Of a DNA stretch of 64,000 nt, positions 11,857 through 34,200 are shown piece by piece. The translations under genes and the position numbers were made by a program. How positions within the stretch are numbered: the first letter of the stretch is position 1; every line of letters starts with the position of its first letter. The stretch comes from Chrysophaeum taylorii (lineage: Eukaryota > Sar > Pelagophyceae > Pelagomonadales > Pelagomonadaceae). The notes below the pieces were generated by a model. That model ran no database searches, was not told the origin of the DNA, and was given only the letters and a program-made list of their open reading frames with translations. Where the stretch lies: NCBI GenBank assembly GCA_029834535.1, contig JAQMWT010000684.1, positions 124,001 through 188,000 of the forward strand, read 5' to 3'.

Positions 11857-12227
11857 CATGCTACGTTCAGGCTCCAACTTTTGGTCGCCATAGTCAATGC
11901 TTTGCTCTCAACAACGTTCTAGCCCACGCCCCTCTTTTCGATCATCATTCCGTCACCCACCTTCATCTTCACGTGGTTTTCATCGCAAGCGCCAACGCCA
12001 TACTGATCTTTGTCACTTTTGTGGTATTCCTGGCCATCACCAGAATGATTGTCATAAGCGTCAGCGCTATTTGCACTCACAAGCTACCGCCCGCTCATGG
12101 CATCAACACCAATACCCACGTCGGTTGCATTCCCAATACCCACCTCGGTCCACTCCCCAATACCCACCTAGGCCCCATCCACCCTTCTACCAACACCATC
12201 TTTTCATCCCCAATCCACCCTTGCCGC
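11857..12227 (+). pseudogene. Fragment of copia family A gag joined directly to an LTR end
   Basis: Nearly identical to 13060-13477 of the neighbouring element (CCHC zinc-knuckle region and the QYPPRS repeats), with two small deletions at its start. It stops abruptly at the LTR junction. It looks like the remains of a head-to-tail element lost by deletion. Confidence 0.8.
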
Positions 12228-12323
12228 TGTGAAGAAGCTATGACACTTACCCCTGCACCACGTATCCAGTATCCTTACGTCTTTCTCCTATCGCTAGTCT
12301 AACGCCTCATACCATTCGTAACA
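12228..12323 (+). repeat. Copia family A LTR, right-hand 96 bp (5' copy)
   Basis: A 96-bp block beginning TGTGAAGAAGC and ending CGTAACA is repeated identically at 21462-21557. A primer-binding-like TGGTAGCAGC follows directly at 12324-12333, resembling the 3' end complement of initiator tRNA-Met. The true LTR may be longer to the left, because the left part here is replaced by the gag fragment. Confidence 0.75.
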
Positions 12324-12434
12324 TGGTAGCAGCTGGTGTCCGTCACGGTCGCACGACCGCTTGACTTCCCGGACAACAGCGACTCCTCCTCGGCTTCAGT
12401 TCATTGCTACGTGTTCGGTTCGTTATCGTTTATC

Positions 12435-13640
12435 ATGTCCTCGATCGAAATTAAGGATAGCAAGCTTTCGCAAAAACTCGATGCTTTCAGTGGTGAGCGA
12501 CATCTTTTTCACCCTTGGGCCCGGCGCTTGGAAAACATGATCATTTCCACCGGTGATCGCATTATCTTGACCACTGACACTTGGACTAGCATTTCCGCTT
12601 CTGGCTGCTCTGAAGAAGAATTTGGTCTCAAGCAGCAACGCTGGTACAGTGCACTCTTCATGGCACTACCAATGCATGATACTGATCGTGCGGATATCCG
12701 TGAAAACCGCGATATGAACTTCACGCGGCTTTACAAACGCATTACTGATGTTTACATGGGTCATGGAGATCGTGTCGCTCAGTCTGCAATTGCTTCATTG
12801 CATTCCTTGGTGTGCAATAACATCGATGAACTTGAGTCCTTTCTTAACAAGTTCATCACTGGTGTTCAAGTTGCTCGGCATCATCAAGATTTCCCTGACT
12901 CAACTGCATTGCAGCTGCTCCAAACGAAAATCCCCGACTCGCTCTTGTCTAAAGATCTCATTGCACTTGATCCTAAATTGCGCACATATGATGGTTTCGT
13001 TGATCGCCTCCACAGTAAAGTTTTTGATTATCTTCAGACCAAGTCTATGCACGTCCATGCTACGTTCCGTGAAAGTCCCCGTCATCGTGAACGCTCCAAC
13101 TTTTATGGTCGCCATCCTTCTGAAAAGTATTTTCATCGCTTCAATGCTTTGCGCTCTCAACAACGTTCTAGCCCACGCCCCTCTTTTCGATCATCATTCC
13201 GTCACCCACCTTCATCTTCACGTGGTTTTCATCGCAAGCGCCAACGCCATACTGATCTTTGTCACTTTTGTGGTATTCCTGGCCATCACCAGAATGATTG
13301 TCATAAGCGTCAGCGCTATTTGCACTCACAAGCTACCGCCCGCTCATGGCATCAACACCAATACCCACGTCGGTTGCATTCCCAATACCCACCTCGGTCC
13401 ACTCCCCAATACCCACCTAGGCCCCATCCACCCTTCTACCAACACCATCTTTTCATCCCCAATCCACCCTTGCCGCCATCTCAATCCTCTCCGCCGCTTC
13501 TTGCGTTGCCACCCTCCACCACACCCTCTGTCCCGCCTTCCACCGCTGTCACCCTTCCTGACCCATCCCTTTCTGCACCCACCTACCCGTCCTACAATTT
13601 CCACCTTCTTTCCATCTCCCCTCCATTCACCAAGTCCTTT
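12435..13640 (+). CDS. Copia family A Gag (CCHC zinc knuckle)
   Basis: Starts MSSIEIKDSKLSQKLDAF at the first ATG after the primer-binding site. The capsid-like segment includes FHPWARRLENMI. A zinc knuckle C-H-F-C-G-I-P-G-H-H-x4-C (13258-13302) is followed by a region rich in Pro, Gln, Tyr and Arg. The frame runs on into pol, but the protease DTGA is one frame back, so either a -1 frameshift or a mutation separates gag from pol. Confidence 0.8.
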
Positions 13641-15341
13641 CCTCCACCAACGCCCTTACCGCTCTGCTCACCGCTCGTGAGCGTGACTACCTTCACAGCA
13701 CCAACCTTCGTCTCGTTGTCTATGATACCGGCGCCAACGTCAGCCTTTTTTTCTCCCGCTGGCTTCACTGACCTGGACAACACTCAACAGCATTCCATCA
13801 CTTCTGCTATCGGCACTGGCTCTGTTTCCGGTTCTGGCACTGCTCACTTAACGTTCCCTTCAATTGGTCCTCTTGACAATCGTGGTCTTCCTTCTCCTGC
13901 ACCCACTCTCTCCGCCCCTCATGGTATACATGTCGCGTTTCCGCATACCCTCATCTCTCCTGGCCTTGGTGACAAACGGATTCTTTCGGATCATTCCCTT
14001 GAACAAGTTGGTTACGATTGCCACACCATTCAGGCCGTTGATCCTGCTTATCCGCAACGTATTTTACGTCACCGCCAAACGCATCACGTTATTCCCCTGC
14101 TTCGTCGCTGTGGTCTTCTTTTGATCGTCTGTTGGATCGGCAATACGACCGCTGCGCCCTACACGGACTACGTTTCACCTTTTGTGGCATTTTCTTCTTC
14201 CCCTCGTGTCCATGATCCTTGTGCGTTTCCCGCTGTGTCTCAACGCACTCAACTAACTTTCGATCTTTGGCATGCTCGTCTTGGTCATTATAATCCTGCC
14301 TATCTTCGGCGTTTGTCTTCTCTTGCTGTCGGCGCACCGTTTTTCCCGAGCTCCGCGTCGCTTTCTTTTTGTCCTGCTTGTGCTCTCGGTAAAATGCATG
14401 CTGCGCATGTTGGCCAACGTAAAGCTCATGCTTCCACTTCGTCTCCTTCCTCCGAGCCTTTGTCTCGTCCACGTGCCGTTGCGCCCTATCTTATTATCCA
14501 CGCCGATCTCATGTTTGCTGGCGTCCCATCCTACATATATCACGATCGCGCGATCCTCACGTTTGTCGATGATCATACGCGCCGCCGCACGCGTTACTTT
14601 GCTCCACGACACGATGCCCTTACGAACGCTCGACAACTCGAACTTTTTCTGTCTACCGTGGTTCGCCCATTCGGATATCGCGTTGCCCTCATCTACACCG
14701 ATCGTGACCGCTCTCTTATGGGCCAATTCGAAACCTTCTGTCTGGGCAACAATATTGCGCTTCGGCGCGCTCCGGCAGCACAGTCCAAAACTTCACAAGC
14801 TCACGCTTTTTCCGGTGTTGTGGAACGCTCTCATCGTGCAACCGCGGATATTACTCGCACTCTTTTGGTACATGCGCACCGTCCACCTGATTTTTGGCGT
14901 TGGGCCATGGAAACGGCTGACTTCATCTCTGAGCGTATGCCAAATGCCTCTAATCCTGGATATATGACGCCATATGAAATGCTACATGAAACACTCCCGC
15001 GTGTCGATTTTCTTCGTGTTTGGGGCTGTCCTGCTGCAATTCTCACTGGCGACAAATGGCCTACCAAAGCTATAACCGGTATCTTCATTGGGTATCCCTC
15101 TGCCGGCCCTGGATATCGCATATTGCTTCAACGCCCCACGGGTCCTGTCATCCACACCTCGATTGATGTTGTTTTTGACGAAAATTTCGCTCTGCGTAAG
15201 TCACTGTCCACCCAACCCCTTCCTCCGTCTCTCGTAGATTCTCGTTTTCCTGACTTGTTTTATTACGACCCTCGTCTATCTTCGGCCGTCAACCCAATAC
15301 TTCTCTTTTTGATGCTCCGGAGCCGGCCTTATCGGGACTGA
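13641..15341 (+). pseudogene. Copia family A protease and integrase, copy 1
   Basis: The retropepsin motif VYDTGANVSLF is at 13718-13750 in a frame different from the following integrase. The integrase has an HHCC zinc motif (HARLGHYN ... CPACALG, 14270-14390) and a DDE core: D in IIHADLMF (14500), D in IYTDRDRSL (14695) and E in VVERSHR (14820). A 1-nt loss near 15300 ends the frame before RT. Confidence 0.85.
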
Positions 15342-15477
15342 TCACCCCACAAACGTCACTGCCTACAATGTTACCGGCCAATACGAAACGTGCACCATTA
15401 CGTCGTGCCAAACGGGGCCGACCGCGCAAAGTCGACAAATCAACAAACTTTTTACGGGCCATGTTTCATCCTGTTAC

Positions 15478-15625
15478 AATGTTGATACGGGCCATTCTCA
15501 TGTTGATACGGGCCATTCTGATGTTGATACGGGCCATTATGTTGATACGGGCCATTCTGATGTTGATACGGGCCATTCTGATGTTGATACGGGCCATTCT
15601 GATGTCGATACGGGCCATTCTGTTT
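15478..15625 (+). repeat. 21-bp minisatellite encoding VDTGHSD repeats, copy 1
   Basis: About seven units of GTTGATACGGGCCATTCT plus GAT, one unit short by 3 bp. All changes keep the frame that joins integrase to RT in the second copy. The same array recurs at 19350-19497. Confidence 0.85.
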
Positions 15626-15656
15626 CCTCTGTCGCTTCTGTTTCCCCTGTCACTCT

Positions 15657-17392
15657 TTGTATGTCTCTTCTGTTAGCTTTCGTTTGTTAGTTCATTATGT
15701 CTTCCTTCCCCTTTGTTTAGCTAGCACCCTTGTTGATCCTCATGCACACGTTTATTACTCTGCTTCCGAAGAAATGTCCCAGTATTCAGACCTTGACGAA
15801 ACCACTATCACTTCCACCCATTTACGTGAAGCTTTAGCTCCGACCAATCCTGAGCGTCCTGGTTGGTTGCAAGCCATCGCTAAAGAATACAGCTCTCTTG
15901 GTCAACTTGGTTGTTGGGATGTGATTCGCCTCCCTCAGACTTTTTCTGGCAACATTTGTACCCTCAAGTGGATCCTCCGCAAGAAGTATGACTCTGGCCG
16001 CTTCAAATCGTACAAGGCTCGCCTTGTCGTCCGCGGTTACACCCAGGTTCACGGCATTGATTATCATGACACCTACTCACCAGTTGCCAACATCGTCACG
16101 ATCCGTTTCTTTCTGACCTTTGTCGCTGTTCGTGACTGGGATTTGCACAAGTTGGATGTTAGCTCCGCTTTTATTCAAGCTCCCATTGACGAAGACATCT
16201 ATGTCTGGCCACCCGAAGGCTATGCTCCTCGCCAACCCACCGATGGTTCCAAAATCGTTTACAAGCTCCGTCGCTCTTGGTATGGTTGCAAACAAGCTTG
16301 TCGCAATTGGTGGCTTTATTTGGAACGCTTCCTTCTCAATGATTGTGGCTTCGTCCGCGGATCTGGTGACACTTGCCATTACAAGCTCGTGCTCAATTCT
16401 ACCGTGGTCCTCCGTCTTGTTTTGGTCGTCGATGATCTTCTTGTAGCGCACCCTCCTCACTGCATTGGCCATTACCAAGCCTTTTTCCTCCGTTTCCGCG
16501 CTTTCACTGACGTCAATGAACTCGATCTCACCTCTTACGTTGGTCTTCGCATTACGCGTGATCGCCCTCGGAGAACCCTCACTCTTGACCAATCCCATGC
16601 TATCCGTGAAATCCTTACCGAACATCGCTTCATCAACAGTAAACCTGAACTCACTCCCGCTCCCAAAGGTCTTCATCTTTCTGCGGCTGATTGTCCGGCT
16701 CCTGGTTCTCCAGATCACATTTTCATGGCACGCATCCCTTTTCGCCGTATTGTTGGCTGTGTCCTCTTCATCTCCATCATGACTCGCCCTGATATCACTT
16801 GGTCCGTCAATCAGTGTGCGCGTTTTTCCCACAATCCTGGTAAACCCCACTGGCACGCTTTATCCCACACTCTGCGTTACCTCAACGGTACTCAGGATCT
16901 TGCCCTTATTCTTGGTCGCGATTCTACCCTTCATCTCTGTGGTTATTCCGACTCCAGCTGGGCCGACGACCCTGATGACCGCCACTCTACAACTGGTTTT
17001 GTTTTCTCCTTGCTGGTTCTATGATAGCCTACTGCTCCCGCTCGCAATACTTACTTGCTCGTTCTTCTTTCGAAGCCGAATTGCTTGCTCTTTACGCTGC
17101 TACTGCTGAGCTCTCTTGGCTTCTCAAACTTTTTGATGACTTTGATCTCCCTCGTCACACGGTCCCAATGTATGTTGATAATAGCACCACCGTCACCCAA
17201 GTTCGTCTCCAATGTCTCACACGGCGCACCCGCCATATTGACATTCGCTTTTACAGTACCGCCGAGTACCATCGTAACCACATCATCGATCTCAAGCACA
17301 TACCCCGCCTTAACAATCTTAGCGATATTTTCACCCGCAGTACGGAAGCTCCTTCCTTCCTCCGGCTTCGTGCTCTTTACCTCACTTCGTGA
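15657..17392 (+). pseudogene. Copia family A reverse transcriptase and RNase H, copy 1
   Basis: RT motifs: LKWILRKKYDSGRFKSYKAR region (15965-16020), DVSSAFIQAPI (16155), VVDDLLVAH (16425) as the catalytic YxDD equivalent. RNase H has SDSSWADDPDDRHSTTG (16950) and the copia C-terminal NNLSDIFTRS. The frame shifts at about 17003, splitting RNase H. Confidence 0.9.
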
Positions 17393-17518
17393 TCTTCGCC
17401 CTGATCTCTGTTGTCCCTTTTTTTTCTTGCCACAATGCCTCTGTGACGTCTTCCTCAAATGTGACGTCTTCCTCAAAGCTTCTTCTGTGAGCGTCTCACT
17501 TACCCGTTTTTCCTTTTC

Positions 17519-18790
17519 CACGCCCTTACCGCTCTGCTCACCGCTCGTGAGCGTGACTACCTTCACAGCACCAACCTTCGTCTCGTCGTCTATGATACCG
17601 GCGCCAACGTCAGCCTTTTTAATTCTCCCGCTGGCTTCACTGACCTGGACAACACTCAACAGCATTCCATCACTTCTGCTATCGGCACTGGCTCTGTTTC
17701 CGGTTCTGGCACTGCTCACTTAACGTTCCCTTCAATTGGTCCTCTTGACAATCGTGGTCTTCCTTCTCCTGCACCCACTCTCTCCGCCCCTCATGGTATA
17801 CATGTCGCGTTTCCGCATACCCTCATCTCTCCTGGCCTTGGTGACAAACGGATTCTTTCGGATCATTCCCTTGAACAAGTTGGTTACGATTGCCACACCA
17901 TTCAGGCCGTTGATCCTGCTTATCCGCAACGTATTTTACGTCACCGCCAAACGCATCACGTTATTCCCCTGCTTCGTCGCTGTGGTCTTCTTTTGATCGT
18001 CTGTTGGATCGGCAATACGACCGCTGCGCCCTACACGGACTACGTTTCACCTTTTGTGGCATTTTCTTCTTCCCCTCGTGTCCATGATCCTTGTGCGTTT
18101 CCCGCTGTGTCTCAACGCACTCAACTAACTTTCGATCTTTGGCATGCTCGTCTTGGTCATTATAATCCTGCCTATCTTCGGCGTTTGTCTTCTCTTGCTG
18201 TCGGCGCACCGTTTTTCCCGAGCTCCGCGTCGCTTTCTTTTTGTCCTGCTTGTGCTCTCGGTAAAATGCATGCTGCGCATGTTGGCCAACGTAAAGCTCA
18301 TGCTTCCACTTCGTCTCCTTCCTCCGAGCCTTTGTCTCGTCCACGTGCCGTTGCGCCCTATCTTATTATCCACGCCGATCTCATGTTTGCTGGCGTCCCA
18401 TCCTACATATATCACGATCGCGCGATCCTCACGTTTGTCGATGATCATACGCGCCGCCGCACGCGTTACTTTGCTCCACGACACGATGCCCTTACGAACG
18501 CTCGACAACTCGAACTTTTTCTGTCTACCGTGGTTCGCCCATTCGGATATCGCGTTGCCCTCATCTACACCGATCGTGACCGCTCTCTTATGGGCCAATT
18601 CGAAACCTTCTGTCTGGGCAACAATATTGCGCTTCGGCGCGCTCCGGCAGCACAGTCCAAAACTTCACAAGCTCACGCTTTTTCCGGTGTTGTGGAACGC
18701 TCTCATCGTGCAACCGCGGATATTACTCGCACTCTTTTGGTACATGCGCACCGTCCACCTGATTTGGCGTTGGGCCATGGAAACGGCTGA
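17519..18790 (+). pseudogene. Copia family A protease-integrase, copy 2
   Basis: The frame is open from the duplication junction through DTGA and the HHCC and DDE motifs, then breaks at a 2-nt deletion (18762) after the catalytic Glu. No own start codon is available, so expression would need readthrough from the first copy. Confidence 0.8.
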
Positions 18791-21266
18791 CTTCATCTCT
18801 GAGCGTATGCCAAATGCCTCTAATCCTGGATATATGACGCCATATGAAATGCTACATGAAACACTCCCGCGTGTCGATTTTCTTCGTGTTTGGGGCTGTC
18901 CTGCTGCAATTCTCACTGGCGACAAATGGCCTACCAAAGCTATAACCGGTATCTTCATTGGGTATCCCTCTGCCGGCCCTGGATATCGCATATTGCTTCA
19001 ACGCCCCACGGGTCCTGTCATCCACACCTCGATTGATGTTGTTTTTGACGAAAATTTCGCTCTGCGTAAGTCACTGTCCACCCAACCCCTTCCTCCGTCT
19101 CTCGTAGATTCTCGTTTTCCTGACTTGTTTTATTACGACCCTCGTCTATCTTCGGCCGTCAACCCAATACCTTCTCTTTTTGATGCTCCGGAGCCGGCCT
19201 TATCGGGACTGATCACCCCACAAACGTCACTGCCTACAATGTTACCGGCCAATACGAAACGTGCACCATTACGTCGTGCCAAACGGGGCCGACCGCGCAA
19301 AGTCGACAAATCAACAAACTTTTTTACGGGCCATGTTTCATCCTGTTACAATGTTGATACGGGCCATTCTCATGTTGATACGGGCCATTCTGATGTTGAT
19401 ACGGGCCATTATGTTGATACGGGCCATTCTGATGTTGATACGGGCCATTCTGATGTTGATACGGGCCATTCTGATGTCGATACGGGCCATTCTGTTTCCT
19501 CTGTCGCTTCTGTTTCCCCCTGTCACTCTTTGTATGTCTCTTCTGTTAGCTTTCGTTTGTTAGTTCATTATGTCTTCCTTCCCCTTTGTTTAGCTAGCAC
19601 CCTTGTTGATCCTCATGCACACGTTTATTACTCTGCTTCCGAAGAAATGTCCCAGTATTCAGACCTTGACGAAACCACTATCACTTCCACCCATTTACGT
19701 GAAGCTTTAGCTCCGACCAATCCTGAGCGTCCTGGTTGGTTGCAAGCCATCGCTAAAGAATACAGCTCTCTTGGTCAACTTGGTTGTTGGGATGTGATTC
19801 GCCTCCCTCAGACTTTTTCTGGCAACATTTGTACCCTCAAGTGGATCCTCCGCAAGAAGTATGACTCTGGCCGCTTCAAATCGTACAAGGCTCGCCTTGT
19901 CGTCCGCGGTTACACCCAGGTTCACGGCATTGATTATCATGACACCTACTCACCAGTTGCCAACATCGTCACGATCCGTTTCTTTCTGACCTTTGTCGCT
20001 GTTCGTGACTGGGATTTGCACAAGTTGGATGTTAGCTCCGCTTTTATTCAAGCTCCCATTGACGAAGACATCTATGTCTGGCCACCCGAAGGCTATGCTC
20101 CTCGCCAACCCACCGATGGTTCCAAAATCGTTTACAAGCTCCGTCGCTCTTGGTATGGTTGCAAACAAGCTTGTCGCAATTGGTGGCTTTATTTGGAACG
20201 CTTCCTTCTCAATGATTGTGGCTTCGTCCGCGGATCTGGTGACACTTGCCATTACAAGCTCGTGCTCAATTCTACCGTGGTCCTCCGTCTTGTTTTGGTC
20301 GTCGATGATCTTCTTGTAGCGCACCCTCCTCACTGCATTGGCCATTACCAAGCCTTTTTCCTCCGTTTCCGCGCTTTCACTGACGTCAATGAACTCGATC
20401 TCACCTCTTACGTTGGTCTTCGCATTACGCGTGATCGCCCTCGGAGAACCCTCACTCTTGACCAATCCCATGCTATCCGTGAAATCCTTACCGAACATCG
20501 CTTCATCAACAGTAAACCTGAACTCACTCCCGCTCCCAAAGGTCTTCATCTTTCTGCGGCTGATTGTCCGGCTCCTGGTTCTCCAGATCACATTTTCATG
20601 GCACGCATCCCTTTTCGCCGTATTGTTGGCTGTGTCCTCTTCATCTCCATCATGACTCGCCCTGATATCACTTGGTCCGTCAATCAGTGTGCGCGTTTTT
20701 CCCACAATCCTGGTAAACCCCACTGGCACGCTTTATCCCACACTCTGCGTTACCTCAACGGTACTCAGGATCTTGCCCTTATTCTTGGTCGCGATTCTAC
20801 CCTTCATCTCTGTGGTTATTCCGACTCCAGCTGGGCCGACGACCCTGATGACCGCCACTCTACAACTGGTTTTTGTTTTCTCCTTGCTGGTTCTATGATA
20901 GCCTACTGCTCCCGCTCGCAATACTTACTTGCTCGTTCTTCTTTCGAAGCCGAATTGCTTGCTCTTTACGCTGCTACTGCTGAGCTCTCTTGGCTTCTCA
21001 AACTTTTTGATGACTTTGATCTCCCTCGTCACACGGTCCCAATGTATGTTGATAATAGCACCACCGTCACCCAAGTTCGTCTCCAATGTCTCACACGGCG
21101 CACCCGCCATATTGACATTCGCTTTTACAGTACCGCCGAGTACCATCGCAACCACATCATCGATCTCAAGCACATACCCCGCCTTAACAATCTTAGCGAT
21201 ATTTTCACCCGCAGTACGGAAGCTCCTTCCTTCCTCCGGCTTCGTGCTCTTTACCTCACTTCGTGA
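18763..21266 (+). CDS. Copia family A integrase C-terminus, RT and RNase H, copy 2
   Basis: From the integrase indel the frame is continuous to the stop: integrase C-terminal RVWGCPAAI region, the VDTGHSD repeats (19350-19497), RT (DVSSAFIQAPI; VVDDLLVA) and complete RNase H. This is the best preserved RT of the family in the window. The open frame also extends upstream to 18144, but those codons are out of frame with integrase. Confidence 0.85.
19350..19497 (+). repeat. 21-bp minisatellite encoding VDTGHSD repeats, copy 2
   Basis: Same array as at 15478-15625, here in frame with both flanking integrase and RT codons. Confidence 0.85.
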
Positions 21267-21383
21267 TCTTCGCCCTGATCTCTGTTGTCCCTTTTTTTTC
21301 TTGCCACAATGCCTCTGTGACGTCTTCCTCAAATGTGACGTCTTCCTCAAAGCTTCTTCTGTGAGCGTCTCACTTACCCGTTT

Positions 21384-21461
21384 TTCCTTTTCCTTCTTTT
21401 CCAGCACCTGTGTGAAGACCTCACTTACCCCTTTTTCCTTTTCCTTCTTTTCCAGCACCTG
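21384..21461 (+). repeat. 52-bp tandem pyrimidine-rich repeat before the 3' LTR block
   Basis: Two units of CTCACTTACCC plus a TTTTTCCTTTTCC tract plus CAGCACCTGTGTGAAG. The sense strand is pyrimidine-rich, not the purine tract expected just before a 3' LTR, which suggests that the LTR really begins further left. Confidence 0.6.
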
Positions 21462-21557
21462 TGTGAAGAAGCTATGACACTTACCCCTGCACCACGTATC
21501 CAGTATCCTTACGTCTTTCTCCTATCGCTAGTCTAACGCCTCATACCATTCGTAACA
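21462..21557 (+). repeat. Copia family A LTR, right-hand 96 bp (3' copy)
   Basis: Identical to 12228-12323. A divergent form occurs inverted at about 61150-61250. The next base starts the 54-bp tandem array, with no 5-bp target duplication visible. Confidence 0.75.
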
Positions 21558-22303
21558 GTGGGAGTGAGTACTTTAGGTGCGTGTCCGTTGGCGAAGTATA
21601 TAGTCGTTTTGTGGGAGTCGATACCTTTAGGTGCGTGTCCGTTGGCTAAGTATATAGTCGTTTTGTGGGAGTTGATACCTTTACGTGCGTGTTCGTCGGC
21701 GAAGTATATAGTTGTTTTGTGGGAGTCGATAGCTTTACGTGCGTGTTCGTCGGCGAAGTATATAGTTGTTTTGTGGGAGTCGATACCTTTACGTGCGTGT
21801 TCGTCGGCGAAGTATATAGTTGTTTTGTGGGAGTGAGTACTTTAGGTGCGTGTCCGTTCGCTAAGTATATAGTTGTCTTGTGGGAGTCAGTACTTTAGGT
21901 GCGTGTTCGTCGGGGAAGTATATAGTCGTTTTGTGGGAGTCGATACCCTTACGTGCGTGTTCGTCGGCGAAGTATATAGTCGTTTTGTGGGAGTGAGTGC
22001 TTTAGGTGCGTGTCCGTTCGCTAAGTATATAGTTGTCTTGTGGGAGTCAGTACTTTAGGTGCGTGTCCGTTGGCTAAGTATATAGTCGTTTTGTGGGAGT
22101 CGATACCCTTACGTGCGTGTTCGTCGGCGAAGTATATAGTCGTTTTGTGGGAGTTACGTAATAGTTTATCAGGGAGTGGTGCTGTAATAGTTACTTTTTC
22201 GAAAGTCGTGTAATAGTTTATCGGGAGCCAAATAGTTTTGAGAATCGGAGAGAACAAATTGGATGCTGTCCGTTAAGCTGACGCAGCCGTCCGTTAACGG
22301 ATC
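21558..22303 (+). repeat. Left inverted arm: eleven 54-bp repeat units plus unique inner segment
   Basis: Unit: GTGGGAGTCGATACCTTTAC, then GTGCGTGTTCGTCGGCGAAG, then TATATAGTTGTTTT. Variant units (GAGTACTTTAGG, CAGTACTTTAGG) occur in a fixed order. Because 54 is 18 codons, several frames stay open through the array; they are not treated as genes. Confidence 0.9.
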
Positions 22304-22663
22304 TAACTAACTAACTTCAGACCTCTCCCGAGCATGGGAGCCAGGCCGGACCGACAGGAGCCAGTCCGGAATCACGGGCCTGTAGACGAGGAGCGCCGAA
22401 AGGTCGGTCGGCGGAGAGTGACAATCAATCGCCATGCGACGAGGAGACCGCAATGTGACTGACAACCATCTCGCTGTTAACGCTTCCTTCAGCGTCCCCC
22501 GGCCATATCCCGTCCCACCGCGAACGTTCCGGCTGCCAACCGGCCCGCCCGGGAGGCGAACAGGCGCCAACCTACGCCGGGGGGACGGATGCCCTCGCAA
22601 GGCGCAGGTTCAGGAGGCACCGTCCTCCATCGCAACCATGCGGTCGGCGATCAGGGTAAGGGA
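22304..22663 (-). mobile_element. SINE-like repeat, type A (SA2)
   Basis: Minus-sense copy with tail TAACTAACTAAC at its left and hairpin CTCCCGAGCATGGGAG. It matches 28976-29337 throughout. No target duplication is visible, since its tail touches the inner end of the foldback arm. Confidence 0.75.
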
Positions 22664-23854
22664 CATTCCGCGTCACATATGCGCCTGCATTGTGTCCGCA
22701 CCCGAAGCCACTCGCAACAACATTGTGCTAGTCATTGCGGCACTTGCGTATATGCAAACATTCTTTTGCAAGAGTCTCGCGCGATTTTGACCGTCTACGA
22801 CACGGTAGTAGGGAGTGTGTGTTCGAGGCTGACATGTGGAGTGAACTCGATTTGAGTGGCTGAGTACGAGGCTGCGACATACGACCAGAGTGAGGCTTAG
22901 TCGTTGGATGTCGGCGGCAAGCGGCTTAAGGGGCTCCTTATCGTCAGCCTCGCCACCGGATTCGGCGTTACCGTCCGTGTCGTGTCCAGGGTTGTTGTGT
23001 TCACCCGTCGTGTTGGGCATCTGAGGGAAAATCACCTGAGCCCAGTCGTAGTCGAGGTTGCCGTCGAAGACATGGTGGAGGCCCGCCTCAAGATGAAGAA
23101 AATGTTGAACCCTGATAGTAATACTGGCGAGCTCATGGACATGTCCGACCTGCGCAGCATTAACCAAGTCTCGTCGCACGGGCACACGTACGATGGGCAC
23201 GAAAGAGAAGCACACGAGTGCGCTATCCTGACGCGGATTTTCCACGTGCCGGTCCGAGAATATGGGGCTCACACTCGCCGCGGGAATGTGATGATGCGAG
23301 CCGTCGCCGAGCACCTCCTTCTCACCGACGACCTCGAGGACCGGCATCCTCAAAGCTCTCGTGGTAGAGAACTTGTCAAAGTTTTCGAACATTGAGACAA
23401 CTCATGAAAAGATGTACGACAGCACGCTTGCGACACCCTCCGCATCCCTTGTCTCCATTTCTCACAAGGCGAACGAGCGTGTGACCGTCTTTGCGCGCCT
23501 CGATAGCCGTTACTGCGGCGCGCCTGCAAAAAAGGATGCGCGACACGAGCGCATTCGTAGCGCCTCGAAGCTGAGGAATGAGAAACTCGATGCGACGTCG
23601 ACGCCGGCATCCGCGAGGAAATCAACACCAAGATCAGCACCCTCCCTGAATAGTGAAACTCGGGGATCAAGGAACACGTTCGCCACATCCCCCGTCCACA
23701 CTTTCTTGCTAGGCTCTAGCTCCCCTGTTGGAACACGTGCGCAAAACAGTCGACACATTCCTAGCTTACCGAGCTTACCCAGCCAATCAGTCGACCAAAT
23801 GCTGTCGACCGCGGCCGAGATTCGTGCCATGGGGCTGATTCACGTGAATTAGCA
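22664..23854. other. Interior of the foldback element, no recognised gene
   Basis: Overlapping open frames exist on both strands: plus 22904-23395 and minus 22673-23392. Neither shows a known motif. The region may hold a decayed second gene or the transposase 3' flank. Confidence 0.4.
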
Positions 23855-25239
23855 TTAGTCGGCGTCGAGAAACTCGTGGACAACCATTCGTAGTAAGAGG
23901 TACTTGGTGCGCAAGGAATATTCCCTAGACGCACGTACAGTAGCGACAGCGCCTTCGAGGCGTCCCTCCCAGCGTGTTCCTTCCAGAGGGGAGCGCTCGT
24001 AGCCCTCGGCCGGGGCTGGCTCGATGTGTATGTTGTCCTCAAGGTCTAGGAGTACCGCATCAATACGGTGGATATCGAAGTTCTCGCGGACGGTCGGATG
24101 TTTCCGATACACATCAACCGGCGAACCCGAAACGTAGAACGGATTGCGGCTAGAGCATCGCCGCGGTCGAAAGTTGAGGGCGCGGTAGTGCTCACTGACG
24201 TTCTCGCACAATGGCCCCAAGTATACACGGTGGAGGCACCAGATGTCCACGTCGAAGTCGGGGTCATTCTCATGCGCGAGGAGCCCGTCGCGCTGCAGGC
24301 GACAGAACTCGTTGTACCACTTCGCCGTGGTCTCGTTCAGGAACCGCCACCTGCGCGAACCCTTATCTCAACATTAGCACTATTCTTCATCGCAGCAGCA
24401 AATTTCCATTCAGAACACTGGCCTCACTGGATCTCGACGGGCGTATTATGCGTCGACTTGCCGTGCTGGACTGTGTCCACGAGCACATACTCGCCGTTGC
24501 CGACCGGCACGAGGTCTGGGTCGCGCTCGCCCATGAGTGCCCACATGAAATCCTCGATGCCGTACCAGCCCCTGTGCCGATCGAGCCGAAGGTGGTGAGG
24601 GACATGTCCAAGCAGCAGGAGCTCTTTGAGGAACCCTTGAAACAGGGTGCCCGAGTCCAGCCGCACCGTGGCGTAGTGGAACTTGCATAAGCGCGAGAAG
24701 CCGTCGATGACGGCGTGGAAGTAGATACGGAATTTGGCGAGCTTGCAGTTCGAGTCCAGGCACCACACGAAGTCGGGCGCCACGCCGTTGAAGTACGTCG
24801 GCCTTCGTGTCGCGGTCGGCGTGTTCGCCGAAAAGTCGCGGGCTCGGTGCAATGCAGCACGCAGCCGCCGACGCTGGACGACGATTCCTCGCGCACGTAG
24901 AGCCCCAGCAGCCACAGTGCCACCGATGCGGCCATGCTGCTGCTCTAAGATGTCGCAGACTTCCTGCGCAATGTGCGGGGAGTCGTCTGCGACACGAGAC
25001 AGACAGGTCACCTTGACGAGATCGTCATCGCTTATGCCGGTGTACCCCTCGAAGCCTTGCTTTTGCAACAGGGTGCGCAAGCGGCTGCGCGTGACGCAAA
25101 AGCCCGCACCTCTGAGGCGGTCGAAGACCTGGCAAGGACGGCAGCCCTCTTCGATAGCAAGCTTCACGATCTCCGCTTGCGTCAGGTTCGAGTGACCTGA
25201 ATCATCTCCGTCAATGGACACATCGTCTCCAACCTGCAT
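23855..25239 (-). CDS. Integrase-like DDE transposase (rve-type core), two exons
   Basis: Exons are 25239-24428 and 24350-23855, joined over a 77-bp intron, giving about 435 residues. An N-terminal helix-turn-helix-like segment (20-60) and a second DNA-binding-like segment (HGRIGGTVAAGALRARGIVV and QRRRLRAALHRA, 102-133) precede an integrase core. Candidate catalytic residues are D162 (VWCLDSN), D220 (HLRLDRHRGW) and E269 (STHNTPVEIQ). After the intron, WRFLNETTAKWYNEF and IWCLHRVYLGPL continue the family pattern. The order and motifs match eukaryotic proteins annotated as integrase core domain-containing, where motifs such as WHxDGxHKL, RSDxGGEN and HNxRIERLW occupy the same places. It probably mobilises the surrounding inverted-arm element. 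Start chosen at the first ATG, 25239. Confidence 0.8.
24351..24427 (-). other. Predicted spliceosomal intron in the transposase gene
   Basis: On the minus strand the donor is CCA|GTGAGG and the acceptor CGCGCAG|GTGG. Unspliced, the frame stops at TGA one codon after VEIQ. Splicing gives VEIQWRFLNE, restoring the conserved catalytic-Glu context and the downstream frame. Confidence 0.75.
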
Positions 25240-26484
25240 TTTTTTTACACAAGGGTTTAGGAGTAACTCAAAGGTTAGACTGACTACGGTGCGTTGACGT
25301 CATGCGAGAAAGCACCAAGGTGGACACAAACGCGGACTGTGCAGTTCGCACGAGCATCATCGGACTCTTGTCGGAGCGCATCGTGCTCGTCGCGTGTACC
25401 CCTCCTAAACGACAGAAAAGGCGCGGTGTTCACACAAACATTTAAGACGTCGTCATAGTATACGAAGGAGTAACAGCGAAGCGAATGCTCGAGGGCGCGG
25501 TGTGCAGGTGCCGACGCGCAATCGCCCGCGAGACGCACGATCATCGCAAGAGAACGCCGCAAGGGGCCGGGCGTACGGATGCAGGCGTTGGCCTAGAGAC
25601 TGGGACGACAAATCCCTTGATGGTGAGGTGCTCTATGGGGTACCGCTTCTTGCTGGCGAAGTAGGGAGCAGGGCGGCAGTGGCTGCGTTTCAGTGTCGGT
25701 GCGGGCCTTTGACGTGGCATGAAATTGTAAACCATAGGCAACCAGCCGCACCGTCACGGTGGTTTCAACGAAACAAATGCGCTGGGCTTTATGGTTGGTC
25801 GGGGGCACACTTTGGGCTCGTCGCGGAACACACGGTGTTGGTCTGATCGGCCCGTCGTCTCAATCTGCAAACCGCCGGTTGTCTTCGTAGGCGGCTTTAC
25901 AGAAGTTTGTGCGCCCGGAACGTCAGTGAGGGATGTTGACGTGCGAAATGTTGAGCGCGCGCCCACATTCGTGCCACTTGCATGGCGCGTCACCCGACCG
26001 GAGTCATCAAATATAGAACCCAACACAAGCCACCACATTGCCGTGGGTTTCGAACACATCGGTGCGGCCGTCGTCGCGCGCCTCATGCGAACGTCTTCGA
26101 AGGTCATCTAACCAGCTGCTTACAAAATCGCGTGGCGTCGCCGTGAAACTTCACCGAGTTGCCAACCGTGTCGCTGGCTCGTTTCGTGACGCGGACTTGG
26201 ATCACCGATCGGCGCCGTCGCGATGCAGCCTGACACAGATGGTCGTCATCACCTCAGCAGCTTCGCCATTCTGGCCGTCAGTGTCCACACCCGTCGCCAT
26301 GCACGTGCTCGTCGAGGACCCATTCGTCGGGGCCACGAACGACTGGCGCTTCCAGTCCTCTAGCCAGACGCCGCGGGCCACGATTGGAGCTTCCAGTCCT
26401 CCCGTCGCCCACAATCATGAGCCTCACAAACCAAGACCGTTGCGAGCCTGCAAGTTGACGTAAAGAAAAACTGACGTGGTGTTG
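25240..26484. other. Right interior of the foldback element, no recognised gene
   Basis: Includes the transposase promoter side. Short frames on both strands (for example plus 25791-26111) have no recognisable domain. Confidence 0.4.
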
Positions 26485-26496
26485 AGTGGCCTGTAC

Positions 26497-26894
26497 TAAC
26501 TAAACTAACTTCAGACCTCTCCCGAGCATGGGAGCCAGGCCGGACATGCAGGAGCCGATCCGGAATCACAGAGGAAAATCACGCAGTTGGGGCTGAGGCG
26601 AGGGACGAGGACTCGTTGATGGTGGACCGCCACTGCGCGCGGTCTTGTGCGAGGTCGTGCAAGAGCGTCGCAGGCCGCGGACGTGTTGGTCCACGAACAA
26701 TCGACCTGTCCGTCGCGTTCTGCCCAACCGAGCGCACCCCATCCCGGCGCGGACTTTCCGGGTGCTAACCGGCCAGCCCGGGAGGCGAGGAGGCACCGTC
26801 TCACTCCGGGACGGCAGGGGCCGCCGCAGGGAGCAAGCGTGTTAGGCGCCGTCCTCCATCGCAACCATGCGGTTAGCGATCGGAGGGTTAGGGT
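26497..26894 (-). mobile_element. SINE-like repeat, type B (SB1), with 12-bp target duplication
   Basis: Flanked by AGTGGCCTGTAC at 26485-26496 and 26895-26906. The tail TAACTAAACTAAC is at the left, hairpin CTCCCGAGCATGGGAG next, and the 5' end is rich in CCTAACCC. Tail plus target duplication indicates target-primed reverse transcription. Confidence 0.85.
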
Positions 26895-26926
26895 AGTGGC
26901 CTGTACACCGACGCCTGAACCTAGTT

Positions 26927-27650
26927 GATCCGTTAACGGACGGCTGCGTCAGCTTAACGGACAGCATCCAATTTGTTCTCTCCGATTCTCAAAACTATTT
27001 GGCTCCCGATAAACTATTACACGACTTTCGAAAAAGTAACTATTACAGCACCACTCCCTGATAAACTATTACGTAACTCCCACAAAACGACTATATACTT
27101 CGCCGACGAACACGCACGTAAGGGTATCGACTCCCACAAAACGACTATATACTTCGCCGACGAACACGCACGTAAGGGTATCGACTCCCACAAAACGACT
27201 ATATACTTCCCCGACGAACACGCACCTAAAGTACTGACTCCCACAAGACAACTATATACTTAGCGAACGGACACGCACCTAAAGTACTCACTCCCACAAA
27301 ACAACTATATACTTCGCCGACGAACACGCACGTAAAGGTATCGACTCCCACAAAACAACTATATACTTCGCCGACGAACACGCACGTAAAGCTATCGACT
27401 CCCACAAAACAACTATATACTTCGCCGACGAACACGCACGTAAAGGTATCGACTCCCACAAAACGACTATATACTTAGCCAACGGACACGCACCTAAAGG
27501 TATCGACTCCCACAAAACGACTATATACTTCGCCAACGGACACGCACCTAAAGTACTCACTCCCACAAAGCAACTATATACTTCGCCAACGGACACGCAC
27601 CTAAAGTACTGACTCCCACAAACCGACTATATACTTAGCGAACGGACACG
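26927..27650 (-). repeat. Right inverted arm of the foldback element
   Basis: Reverse complement of 21558-22303. It lacks two internal 54-bp units present on the left but extends about two units further outward (27567-27650), ending near CGTAGGGTACTGC. The order of variant units is otherwise the same. Confidence 0.9.
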
Positions 27651-27743
27651 TAGGGTACTGCGGCCCCAGAATTACTATTCGCCAAACGGCCTACAGTACT
27701 ACGAAGCTCATTGAGTCCTTTTTGCGCATCATTAAAATCCAAC

Positions 27744-28147
27744 CCTAACCCCTGCGATCGCTAACCGTTGGTTGCGATGGAGGACGGCGCCTAACACGCT
27801 TGCTCCCTGCGGTGCCCCCGGCCGTCCCGGAGCGAGACGGTGCCTGCTCGCCTCCCGGGCTGGCCGGTTAGCACCCGGAAAGTCCGCGCTGGGATTGTGT
27901 TCGCTCGGTTGGGCAGAACGCGACGGACAGGTCGATTGTTCGTGGACCACAACACGTCCACGGCCTGCGACGCTTTTGCACGACCTCGCACAAGACCGCG
28001 CGCAGTGGCGGCACACCATCAACAAGTCCGTCCTCGTCCCTCGCCTCTGCCCCAACTGCGTGTTTTTCCTCTGTGATTCCGTACCGGCTCCTGCCGGTCC
28101 GGCCTGGCTCCCGTGCTCGGGAGAGGTCTGAAGTTAGTTAGTTAGTT
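27744..28147 (+). mobile_element. SINE-like repeat, type B (SB2), full length, with 13-bp target duplication
   Basis: Flanked by ATTAAAATCCAAC at 27731-27743 and 28148-28160. It starts CCTAACCCCTGCGATCGC and ends in a hairpin CTCCCGTGCTCGGGAG, AGGTCTGAA, then (GTTA)n. GC-rich body of about 404 bp without coding capacity. Confidence 0.9.
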
Positions 28148-28160
28148 ATTAAAATCCAAC

Positions 28161-28330
28161 AGTGTCAAAAAACGGAAATCCAACTTCGTCCGCGCGGGGG
28201 GCTCGGGGGGCATAGCACTCCGAGTAAAATAAATAAATAAATAAATAAATAAGAAAAAAATAAATAAATAAGAAAAAAATAAAAATAAAGACGCGCGTGA
28301 AGCACGGTAGCTGGATACCCTTGCTTGTAT
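28161..28330. repeat. (AAAT)n low-complexity tract
   Basis: AAATAAATAAAT-type repeats with AAGAAAAAAAT interruptions at about 28226-28290. Noncoding. Confidence 0.8.
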
Positions 28331-28576
28331 TCACGTCACTCTAGGGCGCGATAAAGCATTGGGGCGAACGTGGTGCGTAAGTGGTCCACAACCTCTTGCT
28401 CCTTGACCACGAAATGCGGCTGGTTGTTGGGTATAGCAGGCCTCCCGATGGATCGGAGGGGTCTTTAATTCATGAGCTTCCTCCTTAGGGACGTACACGG
28501 TGTCGTGGAATCTCATGCCAAGAATGTAGTAGTTCCCTTTGTAGAAGAGTTTGTGCGACGTCCCGAACGCGTTCGT

Positions 28577-28846
28577 CCAGGTCAGGGTCGGATAAGAAAG
28601 TTCGTACGAGCCGTTAACTATGTTTCAGTTTGTACTAAGACATACTCAACGGGTCGCTGAGCTATGTTCATTTGTACTCAAGCAGTATGTGCCGCCACGC
28701 CGCGAGATCGTCGCGATGGAACTAGTCCCCATAGTGAAGTCGGCATCCTTTCGTCCCCTCACGAAAAAAAGGGAAAAGCCCACGCGTTGTAGGACCCGTC
28801 GTTGCGGCGCGGGCTAGTCTCGTTTTCTTATCCGACCCTACCAGGT
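28577..28846. mobile_element. Small MITE-like element with inverted ends
   Basis: CCAGGTCAGGGTCGGATAAG at 28577 is repeated inverted as CTTATCCGACCCTACCAGG at 28827-28845, enclosing about 230 bp. No coding frame. Target duplication not resolved by eye. Confidence 0.4.
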
Positions 28847-28975
28847 AAATTACATGTTGGAGATGGCCGCACAAACCCCCTTGCAAATGAATTCGTTTCG
28901 CTCTATGCTTGGCATGCATCATGCTACTACGGATTTTGAACCAGAACACCATTTGTCATGCTGACCCCGGAGACC

Positions 28976-29337
28976 TAACTTAACTAACTTCAGACCTCTC
29001 CCGAGCATGGGAGCCAGGCCGGACCGACAGGAGCCAGCCCGGAATCACGGGCCTGTAGACGAGGAGCGCCGAATGGTCGGTCGGCGGAGAGTGACCATCA
29101 AGCTTGTCGCCATGCGACGAGGAGACCGCGATGTGACTGACAACCAACTCGTCGATAACCTTCCGTATTCGCCCCCCGGCCATACCCCGTCCCACTGCGA
29201 ACGTTCCGGCTGCCAACCGGCCCGCCCGGGAGGCGAATAGGTGCCAACCTACGCCGGGAGGGCGGATGCCCTCGCAAGGCTCAGGATTCATGAGGCACCG
29301 TCCTCCATCGCAACCAAAGTCGGCGATCAGGGTAAGG
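28976..29337 (-). mobile_element. SINE-like repeat, type A (SA3), with 13-bp target duplication
   Basis: Flanked by GACCCCGGAGACC at 28963-28975 and 29338-29350. Tail TAACTTAACTAAC at the left, same hairpin as other copies, 5' end CCTTACCCTGATCGCCG. 362 bp. Confidence 0.9.
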
Positions 29338-29601
29338 GACCCCGGAGACCACAACGCCGTTACCCAGCTTATCCACGCCAAACCGTGGAAAACTGCTGGC
29401 GAGGCCGCGCGTCGCTGCCCTCTCTACGTGAAACTCCATGGGTATCGCCGCCTTTTAAGGCGGTCATGGGAGGGTGCCCATGCCGTGCGCGTACCGTCAC
29501 GGGCAAATTTATTCTGCGTAACCGCACACCACCTAGCTCTCGTACTTAAAGTACCGAGCGCGCTCACGCGCCTTAGAATGCCTCATAAAGTTTGGTTGTA
29601 A

Positions 29602-29876
29602 GAGCCAAAGTTTGATCAATGCTGAGGAAGTTTTGAGGAGTAGTGATCAAACTTGTCGACCAAACTTTGGGCAAGAATGATCAAACTTAGAAGGTCATTG
29701 ATCAAACTTGAACGGCCCATTGATAAAATTTAATGCAGCCTGGGAATGATCAAACGTGATTGATCAACTATAACGAATATGATCAAACTTACATAATTTT
29801 CCACCACAAACATACACCATATTGACCAAACAGCTTCAAAGAAATTGATCAAACTTTTGATCAAACTTGACCGATC
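29602..29876. repeat. Cluster of about ten TGATCAAACTT motifs
   Basis: The 11-mer TGATCAAACTT and near matches, in both orientations, recur through 275 bp of AT-rich sequence. TTGATCAA is palindromic. Spacing is irregular, which argues against a satellite and for a subterminal binding-site array. Confidence 0.7.
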
Positions 29877-31265
29877 CCCAAAAATGTGTACCTACAACGC
29901 ATCCGTCAAAGTCCTTGTGGTTGTTCATTCTGATAATTGAGGGAAAAACACACACATGCACACACGATAAACTCCAGTTCGAACTCCTCGTACCGTCCGT
30001 CCGCGGCCCCTCGCGGTCTTTTGATCCTCGCAAAGAGAGCAAGCTTCAAGTGCGAGGCGACCCCACTGCCGCCGTCTAGTCACAATCAACGACGTGGCAA
30101 GAGGCCGAGACCGAGCGCTGCTCGCTTCCAAGAAGGTCTTCCTTCCGGGCATGCTGAGTCGCGGCTGCTCCACAACGCGACGATAAACGGGCGATTGTCA
30201 CAGGTTGGCTGGAACCTCGTTAAAATAACCGGCATGCTTCCCTTGAGATTATGCGACGCCACGCTGCTGCCGATCCTCCCTATCCCCGACAAACTCCGGC
30301 CGTCTGAGTTCTGCGCATTCGCCGACAGCACCTCATGGTTTCTGTCTCGGGTCTACCCGCAACTTCCACCGGTATGCTCCGTCCCAGAACGCTTCCTCGC
30401 AACAGACCGGCATTACCACCCGCTCATTGGCGTCTGGTTAGCACCTACCATAGCAACCTCCAGCACGCCAGCAGCATCTGCAACCGGAGCTTCCCGTGGA
30501 GATAGCGTCGCGGCACTCGGCTCGTCGGGCTCGCTGCGTGTTGCCTCGAGTCTAAGACCTTTTCCTCGGAGATGCCAGGCAGGAGTTGAGCTGCATCACA
30601 ATGTCATAGCCGTCATCAACGCGAGGGCGCGGGCGAGTCGAACCTGAGGAGCGTGTCGTCTTAGCGACGCTCCTCACGCCAGACTAAGTCCAGAAGCCAA
30701 GCTGGTGCGTTGAAAAAGATACTGCACATAGTACCCATCAACTCTGTGAGATGTTGTTGCAGGCAACTGCGAAAGAGGCGTGTCTCTGTCGCAAAGCACG
30801 CTTTTCGTCGCCGTACCCCCGCTCTCGAGTAGCAGGCGCGCGACAATTATGCAATGCCTGTTGCAACAGTTTTTCTTTAGATTGTTGAGTGACACGCGTA
30901 CCAGGCCTGAGCAACCGCCGCTTGAAGACGATGCCAACCTGGCTCGCGGCCGTCACTGCTGGTCTGGTGGACATTGGTTCAAACCTGGTGGACGTCGGCA
31001 CCAATCAACAGGCGTCGGACGTCGACGTTGCCTTAAAGGCAAGTTGACGAAAAGTGGCAATCGGCGGCGGCGGCGGCGGCGGCGGCTCAAAAGTCCCGCA
31101 GCGCAAGTCTGAGCTTGTCGTGGTGGCCAATCTTGCATGCACCAGAGAGTCACCTCTGAAGGCACCGCGAGAGCTCGCCTGACCCCCATGTAGGATGCTG
31201 CGCACACCTCCACACGGCACTTCGCGCTACCGTACTCACGTTGACGCAGGCTAGAATGAGACCAC
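29877..31265. other. No confident gene; open frames of unknown status
   Basis: A plus-strand frame spans 29937-30647 (a protein-like stretch around SQVGWNLVKITGMLPL at 30195-30245) but has no recognised domain. A (GGC)n run lies at 31066-31086. The right part is downstream sequence of the ABC transporter gene. Confidence 0.35.
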
Positions 31266-34200
31266 CTAATAGTGAAGGCGCCTCGCCATGAAGACGCATC
31301 CGAGAGCCCCGAGGAGGAGGACGAGTGTGGAGGCTTGAAGGTAACGCGCGCTTAGGGTGTGGCGGGCGTAGGAATGGGTCTCTTGGAGGTAGGTCTTGGC
31401 GGACACAGGGCAGTTCGAGAGGCCGCGATTCCGACCACAGCGAAGAGTTTTGGGGAGCTGAGTCGTGACGGCGACGTCGAGCATCATGTAGAAGACCCCA
31501 AGGTGGTTGGCGAACCAGCGGAGAACCTTTGGAAAGTCGGCGATCGCGCGGTAGAAGCCGTTGAGGGTTGAGGTGTAGAACACGAGGGCCATCCACGTGC
31601 CCATAACGGCCTTCTTGCGACACAAACCAAGCAGGAACAGCAATGAGGCCAGGCCATAGAGGCAACATATCCACGTCGTGGCGAGGGTGTGGAGAAAGGC
31701 GCGCGGGGTGGGGTTGAGGCCAGCGAGGAAGTAGGTGGGAACGACGGCAGGCAACGCCGAGCAGAGTAAAACGCGAAAAGAATGCACAGCGACCAAAGCA
31801 GCCAGCGAAGACATCGCACTGTACTTGCCACAGCGAACCTCGTGGCAAACTTGGTGCTCGAGGTCGTCGACAACGTCCCAAGCCATCATGCTAGTGGCGA
31901 ATCCGAGGGTAGGCGCGATCTGGGCAACGCCCGCGACGTCGCGAGCAAGAGACGCGAGCCGAACGTCCAGTCGCGAGCAGGCCAGGCCGATCACTGCCGA
32001 GACCAGAGAGTGCTGGAGGAGCAGAGCGAAACCGAGCCCGGGGTTCCTGAGCGTGAGCTTGGTGTGCCGGCGACAGTGGATCCACACGTGTTCGAGGGTA
32101 GGTTTGGCGTACGGCGCCGACGGCGGCACTTTCGCGGGAACAGGACCCTCGTTGTCTCGAAGAAGAAGAATTTCGTCGTCGTCGTCGTCGTAGTCGTCCA
32201 GCACTTTGAGGCGCGTCATGATGGCTTCGGCCGCGTTGGCGTCGGAGCCCTCGAAGCTGGCGGGGACTTGGTCTCGCGGGCCGGCGTAGTAGCAGACGCC
32301 GCCTTTCCCGAGTAAAACAACGGTCTCGAAGAGGGCAAAAATCTCGACGCGGGGGCTGTGGAGCGACGTTAAGAGGACCCAGCGTGTCGCGAGGGCGAAC
32401 GCATGCATGTTTTTGGCTAGATGATATGCGTCAGACGCCGAAAGCCCAGTCGTCGGTTCGTCTATCAGCAGCCACGGCCGACCGGAAAGGATCCCGTCGG
32501 CACCCAGCGCGGCCCTTCGCGCCTCGCCTCCGGAGAGTCGCGATATGTTTGTACGAGCGACTCGCCTCAGTCCCAGAAATCCGATCGTCGCGTCGACGAT
32601 ATCTTCTGGGAGTCCAGCGAGTTGGGCGTGGTACGCGAAGAGCTCGAGAACGTTGAGCCACCGGGGCAGCTGGGGGTGCTGCTGAACGTAGGCGATCGCG
32701 TGATGCCTCTCGACGCGGCCTGTCGCGGGGATTCTCCCGGCGAGGGCATTGAGTAACGTTGATTTGCCACTACCCGAGTTGCCGAATATGGCGGTCAACG
32801 ACCCGGGGTCCGAGCGGAACGACGCGTTGCGCACTAAGCTACTTCTGCTGCTGCCCACGGAGAGCTGTTCGACGCGGAGAGGTCGAACTATTGGAGGAGT
32901 AGTCTCCGACAACAACGCTACCAGACGCTGCACCACCTTGTCGTCGTCGTCGACATCTTTATTATCCACCGCGACCGGTTCGACGACGTGGTTTTTACCC
33001 GAGAGTTGAAGGTCGTTCGCAGCCACAAGTTTGATGCGGCATATCACGATGCGATGAAGAGCGCACAATATCACGATGACACAAGCGAGCTCGTAGACCC
33101 CGAATCGCAGGACCCAGTCTCGAGTTTGACCCATATTGAAATGGTCCAGAATTGAGCTGCCTCGAACGGGGCACAGGTAGACTTCCTTTTCCCGGCCTCG
33201 GCACTCGTAGACTCTTCCTCGGAGCTGGGATGTCGCCGTGCCGTCGTTGACCCATCTCAAAGGCAAAATGTCCGAAAAATGAGCCGCCAGAGCGGTGGGC
33301 ATGACGCGCTGCGAGAAAAAGACGCCCTTGAGATTGTTATTCAGAATCATCCAAATTGTCATCATCAACGACGCCAGAGTGGTATCGCCTTGGAGCGCGC
33401 TCACAAGAAGAATCGTCATAAGTGTGAGCGAATGGGCCCCGAGCCATTGGAACAGCGCAGTTTTAAAAAATGGGGAGCCCGGGTACCAGTCGACCATGAC
33501 GTAATATATCGTCATCGTCGGGATGGTCATCAAGATCGAGCGGATCGACGTACATATAAAGAGCGCCACGAAAAAGGAAACGTAGCGGTATCTTCCGTTG
33601 CGCATCTCCGAACTTGTGATCGGCGCAATCGCGCAATAGCAGACGATAAGCGGCACGCAGTGGTCGTGGCTTTGCGCTTGCGTGAAGGACGCGGCGTAAA
33701 ATCGAGCCCAGGCGCCGTCGGCGGTGTTCGACGGGTTGAGCATGAACCATCCAGAGAGCGTGCATTGGGCCATCTGAAGAACGAACGGAATTGCGGTGAG
33801 ATTGACATCGAATAAAAATATCGCGGCGAGGCGTCGCGTCAGGACGGTCGTCTCCCTCACAAATTCGAGAGCGTTTCGCGCGATGGAAAAACTCGCTGCG
33901 GGTTTGCGAAAGGTCCGTTCCTGGTCGTCGCGAGAAAGGTCATCCACCGCAAAGTCGTCGAACATCGAAATCGAGTCCAGCAACCACTCGGCCGTCGTCG
34001 ACGCGGGGGAATTCCCCTCGAGGCGGTCGCGAGCCTCGGCGCGGGGTCCGGCGTACACGGCGCTGCCACTCTTAAGCAGCACGAGCGCGTCGAAGAGCGA
34101 GAATATAGAATCGCCGGGCTGATGGATCGTGGCTATGGTAAAGCAATTCGCGCGTCGGGTCAACCGCGAGATGAATCGAACGAGACCCAGAGCATCGGCG

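Follow-up and report, generated by a model that had tools for sequence, protein, structure and literature searches.

Foldback-type arms and an integrase-like transposase in a putative DNA transposon family of the alga Chrysophaeum taylorii

What kind of mobile element carries long inverted arms of tandem repeats on either side of a gene for an integrase-like transposase with a DDE (aspartate, aspartate, glutamate) core? A 64,000-nucleotide stretch of the genome of the pelagophyte Chrysophaeum taylorii (the window; C684:124001-188000, C-numbers denoting contigs of the 70.8-Mb, 697-contig assembly) raises this question, as an initial annotation had proposed such an element at 21558-27650. The published genome of this species is described as 71 Mb in 702 contigs, from a mix of short and long reads (PMC10366177). 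We read the element as one copy of a cut-and-paste-type DNA transposon family that would be IS3EU/IS481-like in its enzyme and tips, with arms that are amplifications of the tip module and an ancestor with two genes; from sequence comparison, we put the probability of this reading at about 0.8. The proposal of a mobile element that joins foldback-type arms to an integrase-like DDE transposase has held up, on the evidence of tips, target duplications, uninterrupted sites and the position of all six PF24764 matches between arms.

The transposase and its flanking arms

The transposase is encoded on the minus strand from 25239 to 23855, with one intron (Table 1). The spliced product, protein P0001, has 435 amino acids and is identical to the annotated C. 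taylorii record CTAYLR_005536. In Pfam, its sole match above cut-off is PF24764 (rva_4), at 63.3 bits against a cut-off of 26 over residues 153-333; we take this family to be the one that holds the IS3EU transposases. The core had been called rve-type, but the rve model reaches only 12.5 bits, under its cut-off of 32.6, and an intron interrupts the gene. The NCBIfam models for IS481 (24.7 bits, 1.5e-5) and IS3 (20.5 bits, 2.4e-4) both score far below their own cut-offs. Profile searches of the transposon's open reading frames (ORFs) gave nothing else above a curated cut-off; a PHROGs transposase match (E 0.013) and weak matches to Ycf9, APP1, Hamartin and others were set aside. A sequence search of solved structures gave no match. 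Residues D162, D220 and E269 are the likely DDE triad, assigned from the position of the Pfam match and from known motifs. By eye, P0001 contains no HHCC motif.

The inverted arms of the window element occupy 21558-22303 and 26927-27650. Complementarity is 100% over 437 nt between 21558-21994 and 27130-27566, and 98% over 249 nt between 22055-22303 and 26927-27175, and Tandem Repeats Finder (TRF) reports 54-bp units at 21558-22154 (11.1 copies) and 27076-27650 (10.7 copies). The arms are thus near-perfect and consist mostly of 54-bp tandem repeats, as first described. The limits first given for the element contain these arms and need correction: comparison with other copies places the right end at 27698, beyond 27650, and the left tip has been lost. 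Tips of the family read TACTGTAGG..CCTACAGTA. The right tip, TACTGTAGGCCGTTTGGCGAATAGTAATTC on the minus strand, has one match in the window at up to three mismatches and none in 100 shuffles. It is the only tip that the search finds in the window copy, whose left arm begins mid-unit at 21558, directly abutting the 3' long terminal repeat (LTR) of a copia-like element.

Read in register with the tip, an arm consists of a 41-bp tip unit, a 49-bp unit and then 53/54-bp units. When the tip unit was aligned with four of the 54-bp units, its score was reached by 0, 5, 38 and 79 of 5000 dinucleotide shuffles, and the in-register rotation of tip against unit ties for the best of 53. Given this in-register relationship between the 54-bp units and the 41-bp tip, the tip module appears to have been amplified to form the arms. 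We also considered whether left and right arms are homogenised at each transposition. At the five transposase sites, with gap columns ignored, the nearest relative of 9 of 10 arms is the same-side arm of another copy, the exception being C62L, a partial arm; on this ground we set homogenisation aside, and the arms seem to be inherited by side with the element rather than remade from the partner at each move.

By motif count, arms hold 9-13 units in the transposase copies, where they are about 0.7-0.9 kb long; C199 has up to 16 and C480 has 3-4. These counts bear on a simpler explanation, namely that chance duplication lengthened the short terminal inverted repeat (TIR) of an ordinary IS3EU element, leaving arms without a role. 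The enzyme and tips are indeed IS3EU-like, and the range from 3-4 units in C480 to 9-16 in the longer copies suggests that the exact number is unimportant. Yet every arm read in the transposase copies, including the window's left arm without its tip, has 9-13 units, and we regard chance extension as a doubtful explanation.

Copies, insertion sites and a second gene

The 70.8-Mb assembly contains six PF24764 matches (85 of 85 candidates scored), and all six lie between arms of this family. They represent five insertion sites (C684, C268/C6, C53, C62 and C113), C268 and C6 being near-identical contigs (99.7% over 8.9 kb including flanks) that we count as one site; a degenerate relic lies on C48. 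A genome search for copies with both arms and transposase, which the initial annotation had envisaged, finds them at all five sites. The window copy is about 6 kb long, with the transposase kept and a second gene, ORF2, absent; other transposase-only copies of about 6 kb are C268/C6 and C113, and the left arm of C62 contains an additional insertion. Outside the arms, C268, C113, C53 and C62 differ from the window copy by 0-1.7% per region, so that the family is young, and with such near-identical interiors the copies look recently mobile. Transposase frames are intact at C684, C268/C6 and C53, with 1-4 nucleotide differences in 435 codons, and the matches at C113 and C62 are broken into pieces. 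In three of four comparisons, the stretch downstream of the gene differs more than the coding sequence.

Across family loci, 20 of the 27 rows of the tip search start with TACTGTAG and a further three depart from it at a single base; the remaining four are the damaged tips of C632 and C664, an internal tip in C415 and a 12-bp chance match at C333:74030. Seven copies are readable at both tips (C113, C268/C6 counted once, C281, C333, C480, C53 and C62). Both ends read inward TACTGTAG in six of them, and C333 has one end with TACAGTAG. Target duplications, anticipated at the outer ends, are exact and 5 bp long in four of the seven (GAAAC in C268/C6, AAAAG in C53, GAGAT in C62 and TACTG in C281) and 6 bp long in one (CTGCAC in C113). 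The arms recur at these other loci, where their unit numbers and the target duplications vary; this speaks against an assembly artefact, a possibility raised at the outset.

Joined flanks were compared with the genome for C53, C113 and C62. Those of C53 are continuous over the junction in 40 of 40 matches scored (289 candidates), at 94-98% identity, and those of C113 match without a break from position 1 to roughly 200 of 300 in 40 places, with 98-100% identity in 39. The C53 and C113 insertions sit in highly repeated host sequence (40 scored uninterrupted places each), perhaps itself mobile. Among other loci, the 30 bases outside the tip are shared by the one-ended copies C199:10161 and C529:4519, which are either allelic contigs or a duplicated site. 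In the 2-kb copy C415:53012-54980 (L077), the left arm contains another tip-like sequence, at 53207, and there is no match to the transposase.

Arms also occur without the transposase, at C281, C199 and C333, which carry ORF2 instead, and in the short copies C415 and C480. The initial annotation had named this situation as one that would count against a single mobile system, and it is what would be expected if the arms belonged to a separate foldback or satellite-like repeat, with the rva_4 gene as its passenger. We consider a passenger gene very improbable, as all six PF24764 matches lie between arms, and the TA..TA tips and 5-6-bp duplications suit the IS3/IS481-like enzyme group. Moreover, C281, C199 and C333 have in common a junction (window 25470) that joins the end of ORF2 to sequence from upstream of the transposase gene, which points to one shared deletion that removed the transposase and thus to descent from gene-bearing elements. 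Because the tips are shared and three loci have this common deletion junction, we read the arms-only and ORF2 copies as non-autonomous derivatives of the transposon.

ORF2 was recognised as a long ORF in the 9.4-kb copy C281, where it has no Pfam match above cut-off. Relatives lie between arms in C199, C333 and C53, a 13.7-kb copy in which ORF2 and the transposase are both present and convergent; fragments are present in the C48 relic, with the same convergent arrangement, and on C416 a relative lies about 18.5 kb from the sole arm found there. C53 and C416 share another C-terminus of ORF2, which is also kept in C48. The annotated ORF2 proteins (579-789 amino acids) have no Pfam match, and a protein search found no relative outside C. 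taylorii; the structure model, with a predicted local distance difference test score (pLDDT) of 29, is poor. Between C281 and C53, ORF2 shows eight differences, with equal nonsynonymous (dN 0.0060) and synonymous (dS 0.0062) divergence, giving no sign of selection.

We infer that the ancestor carried two genes and that the transposase-only and ORF2-only copies derive from it. C53 could instead be two nested elements, with ORF2 contributed by another element; within the middle of this copy (26765-33455), only 30416-31756 was read. The relic on C48, at 43-64% protein identity in pieces, nevertheless has the same convergent gene order, and ORF2 lies between arms of this same family at C281, C199 and C333, making nesting unlikely.

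Relation to known transposons and proposed mechanism

By enzyme and tips, the closest described systems are IS3EU and GingerRoot, which likewise lack an HHCC motif and combine TA..TA termini and accessory ORFs with an integrase-like DDE transposase of IS3/IS481 type. IS3EU elements are described as having TA..TA termini and duplications of usually 6 bp (PMC10045372). TET-bearing IS3EU elements of rust fungi are reported with TIRs of more than 30 bp and oppositely oriented transposase and alpha-kinase genes (PMC12730594), and Styx of Zymoseptoria with 36-bp TIRs, 6-bp duplications and four coding sequences, two of them restricted to its genus (PMC10853768). The algal duplications, in contrast, are mostly 5 bp (5 bp in 4/7, 6 bp in 1/7, imperfect in 1/7, none in 1/7), and the arms of about 0.7-0.9 kb of tandem units differ from the short TIRs in descriptions of IS3EU and GingerRoot. 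We call the family IS3EU-like without filing it as a member: its enzyme and termini agree with that group, its duplications tend to be shorter and its arm architecture departs greatly. IS481EU has a related transposase group, IS481 being the top NCBIfam match (below cut-off); it is described from parabasalids with TNT..AYA or TGT..ACA termini, duplications of about 4, 15 or 25 bp and TIRs mostly under 50 bp (PMC10045372).

By arms, the closest systems are Galileo, Tetris and Foldback. Galileo, a P superfamily element of Drosophila, shares long TIRs whose tandem repeats are reported to hold extra transposase-binding sites (PMC3688188); its transposase is P-type with a THAP domain, unlike the rva_4 enzyme here. 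Tetris and other Foldback/Mutator elements likewise have long TIRs with tandem units, and the units of Tetris share a 37-bp stretch with the TIR flanking domain; according to its description, and unlike the algal element, Tetris has no known transposase, duplications of 8-10 bp and units of about 220 bp (PMC4079207). P0001 has no match to Mutator-like elements and the algal duplications are 5-6 bp, which sets the family apart from Mutator/Foldback elements; in structural class it is foldback, having long TIRs with internal tandem units. Polinton/Maverick elements combine an integrase with DNA polymerase B and capsid genes. A scan of the six window ORFs, P0001 and P0002-P0006 found no DNA polymerase B or capsid domain, the middle of C53 having been read in part. 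In the one open-access library searched, the sole text to mention both IS3EU and foldback elements is an oyster satellite survey, with both IS3EU mentions in a table. The combination of foldback-type arms with an integrase-type transposase thus appears new, the arms themselves being known from other elements.

In the mechanism that we favour, the rva_4 transposase would recognise the TACTGTAGG tips and insert the element with a mostly 5-bp stagger, presumably by cut-and-paste. The arms would be tandem amplifications of the tip module, and their units would probably provide many transposase-binding sites per end, by analogy with Galileo. The ancestral element, judging from C53 and C48, may have held two convergent genes, the transposase and the orphan ORF (ORFan) ORF2, and the window copy would be a 6-kb derivative that lost its left tip through the copia insertion or a rearrangement.

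Several observations weigh against this account. For two of the four arm units tested, the separation from shuffles is weaker (38 and 79 of 5000). C333 lacks a target duplication and that of C480 is imperfect, two of the seven copies, and the joined flanks of C62 match only 5-7 bp beyond the junction, which is compatible but weak. PF24764 does not match the C48 relic at E 0.001, and no arm pair was found around it. A short-word search of 5.8 billion proteins (3179 and 7993 candidates scored) found no relative of the transposase outside C. taylorii. Its coding sequence differs by 0-0.5% between copies, near the 0.2-0.3% of the upstream stretch, and selection is therefore not apparent. With a poor fold model (pLDDT 40), the support for the DDE residues comes from the Pfam match and the reading of motifs.

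A bolder proposal is that, alongside IS3EU and IS481EU, the family forms a eukaryotic superfamily or deep lineage of its own, marked by a convergent rva_4 gene and ORFan, mostly 5-bp duplications and ends of 9-16 tip-derived transposase-binding modules, the foldback architecture having arisen independently in the IS-type integrase group; we hold this as speculative. Foldback arms are reported mainly from Mutator- and P-type elements in the accounts available. Their presence on an algal integrase-type lineage would allow the idea of repeated evolution, in which ends become transposase-binding arrays, to be tested with an unrelated enzyme; the family also includes derivatives in which the transposase and ORF2 occur apart.

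Neighbouring features of the window

Table 1. Features of the transposon and its surroundings, in window coordinates
Positions	Strand	Feature	Basis
12228..21557	+	Copia-like LTR retrotransposon; its 3' LTR occupies the expected place of the left tip	LTR and self comparisons
21558..22154	+	Left arm, an array of about eleven 53/54-bp units that lacks the tip unit and the second unit	Arm alignment, TRF, unit reading, motif count
22155..22303	+	Inner domain of left arm	Arm alignment, comparison with other copies
22304..22660	+	Dispersed repeat just inside left arm; relatives within arms of C281 and C677 and elsewhere on C416 and C480	Arm alignment, copy comparison
23855..24350	-	Transposase exon 2 with stop codon	Homology searches; exact splice site read by eye
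24351..24427	-	Intron, 77 nt, GT-AG	Read by eye against protein P0001
24428..25239	-	Transposase exon 1; presumed catalytic D162, D220, E269	ORF, Pfam match
25470..25661	+	Stretch upstream of transposase gene; fused to ORF2 end in three transposase-less copies	Copy and protein comparisons
26485..26926	+	Dispersed repeat just inside right arm; relatives in C415, C281, C199, C333 and C48	Arm alignment, copy comparison
26927..27075	-	Inner domain of right arm	Arm alignment, comparison with other copies
27076..27657	-	Right arm, array of 53/54-bp units and 49-bp second unit	TRF, unit reading
27658..27698	-	41-bp tip unit, TACTGTAGG.. reading inward	Tip searches, copy comparison

The window contains no RNA family at gathering score and no transfer RNA, and an exact-pattern scan of viral contigs gave no match. 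The copia-like element has identical 96-bp LTRs at 12228-12323 and 21462-21557. By eye, no matching duplication is present at its far side, suggesting insertion followed by rearrangement. Directly upstream of the 5' LTR, 11894-12227 repeats the internal stretch 13141-13476 (99.4%), so that the outer junction of this element also looks rearranged. It further holds a tandem duplication of about 3.87 kb (13650-17519 and 17520-21393, 99.7%), with a 21-bp tandem array in each half. A copia element also lies between the arms of the short arms-only copy C480:230488-234102 (L069), with a 5-bp duplication, AGTCG, read by eye. The dispersed repeat with CTCCCGAGCATGGGAGCC occurs in the window both inside the arms, at 22304-22660 and 26485-26926, and outside the element at 27769-28139, and another copy of it lies directly beside the C268 insertion.

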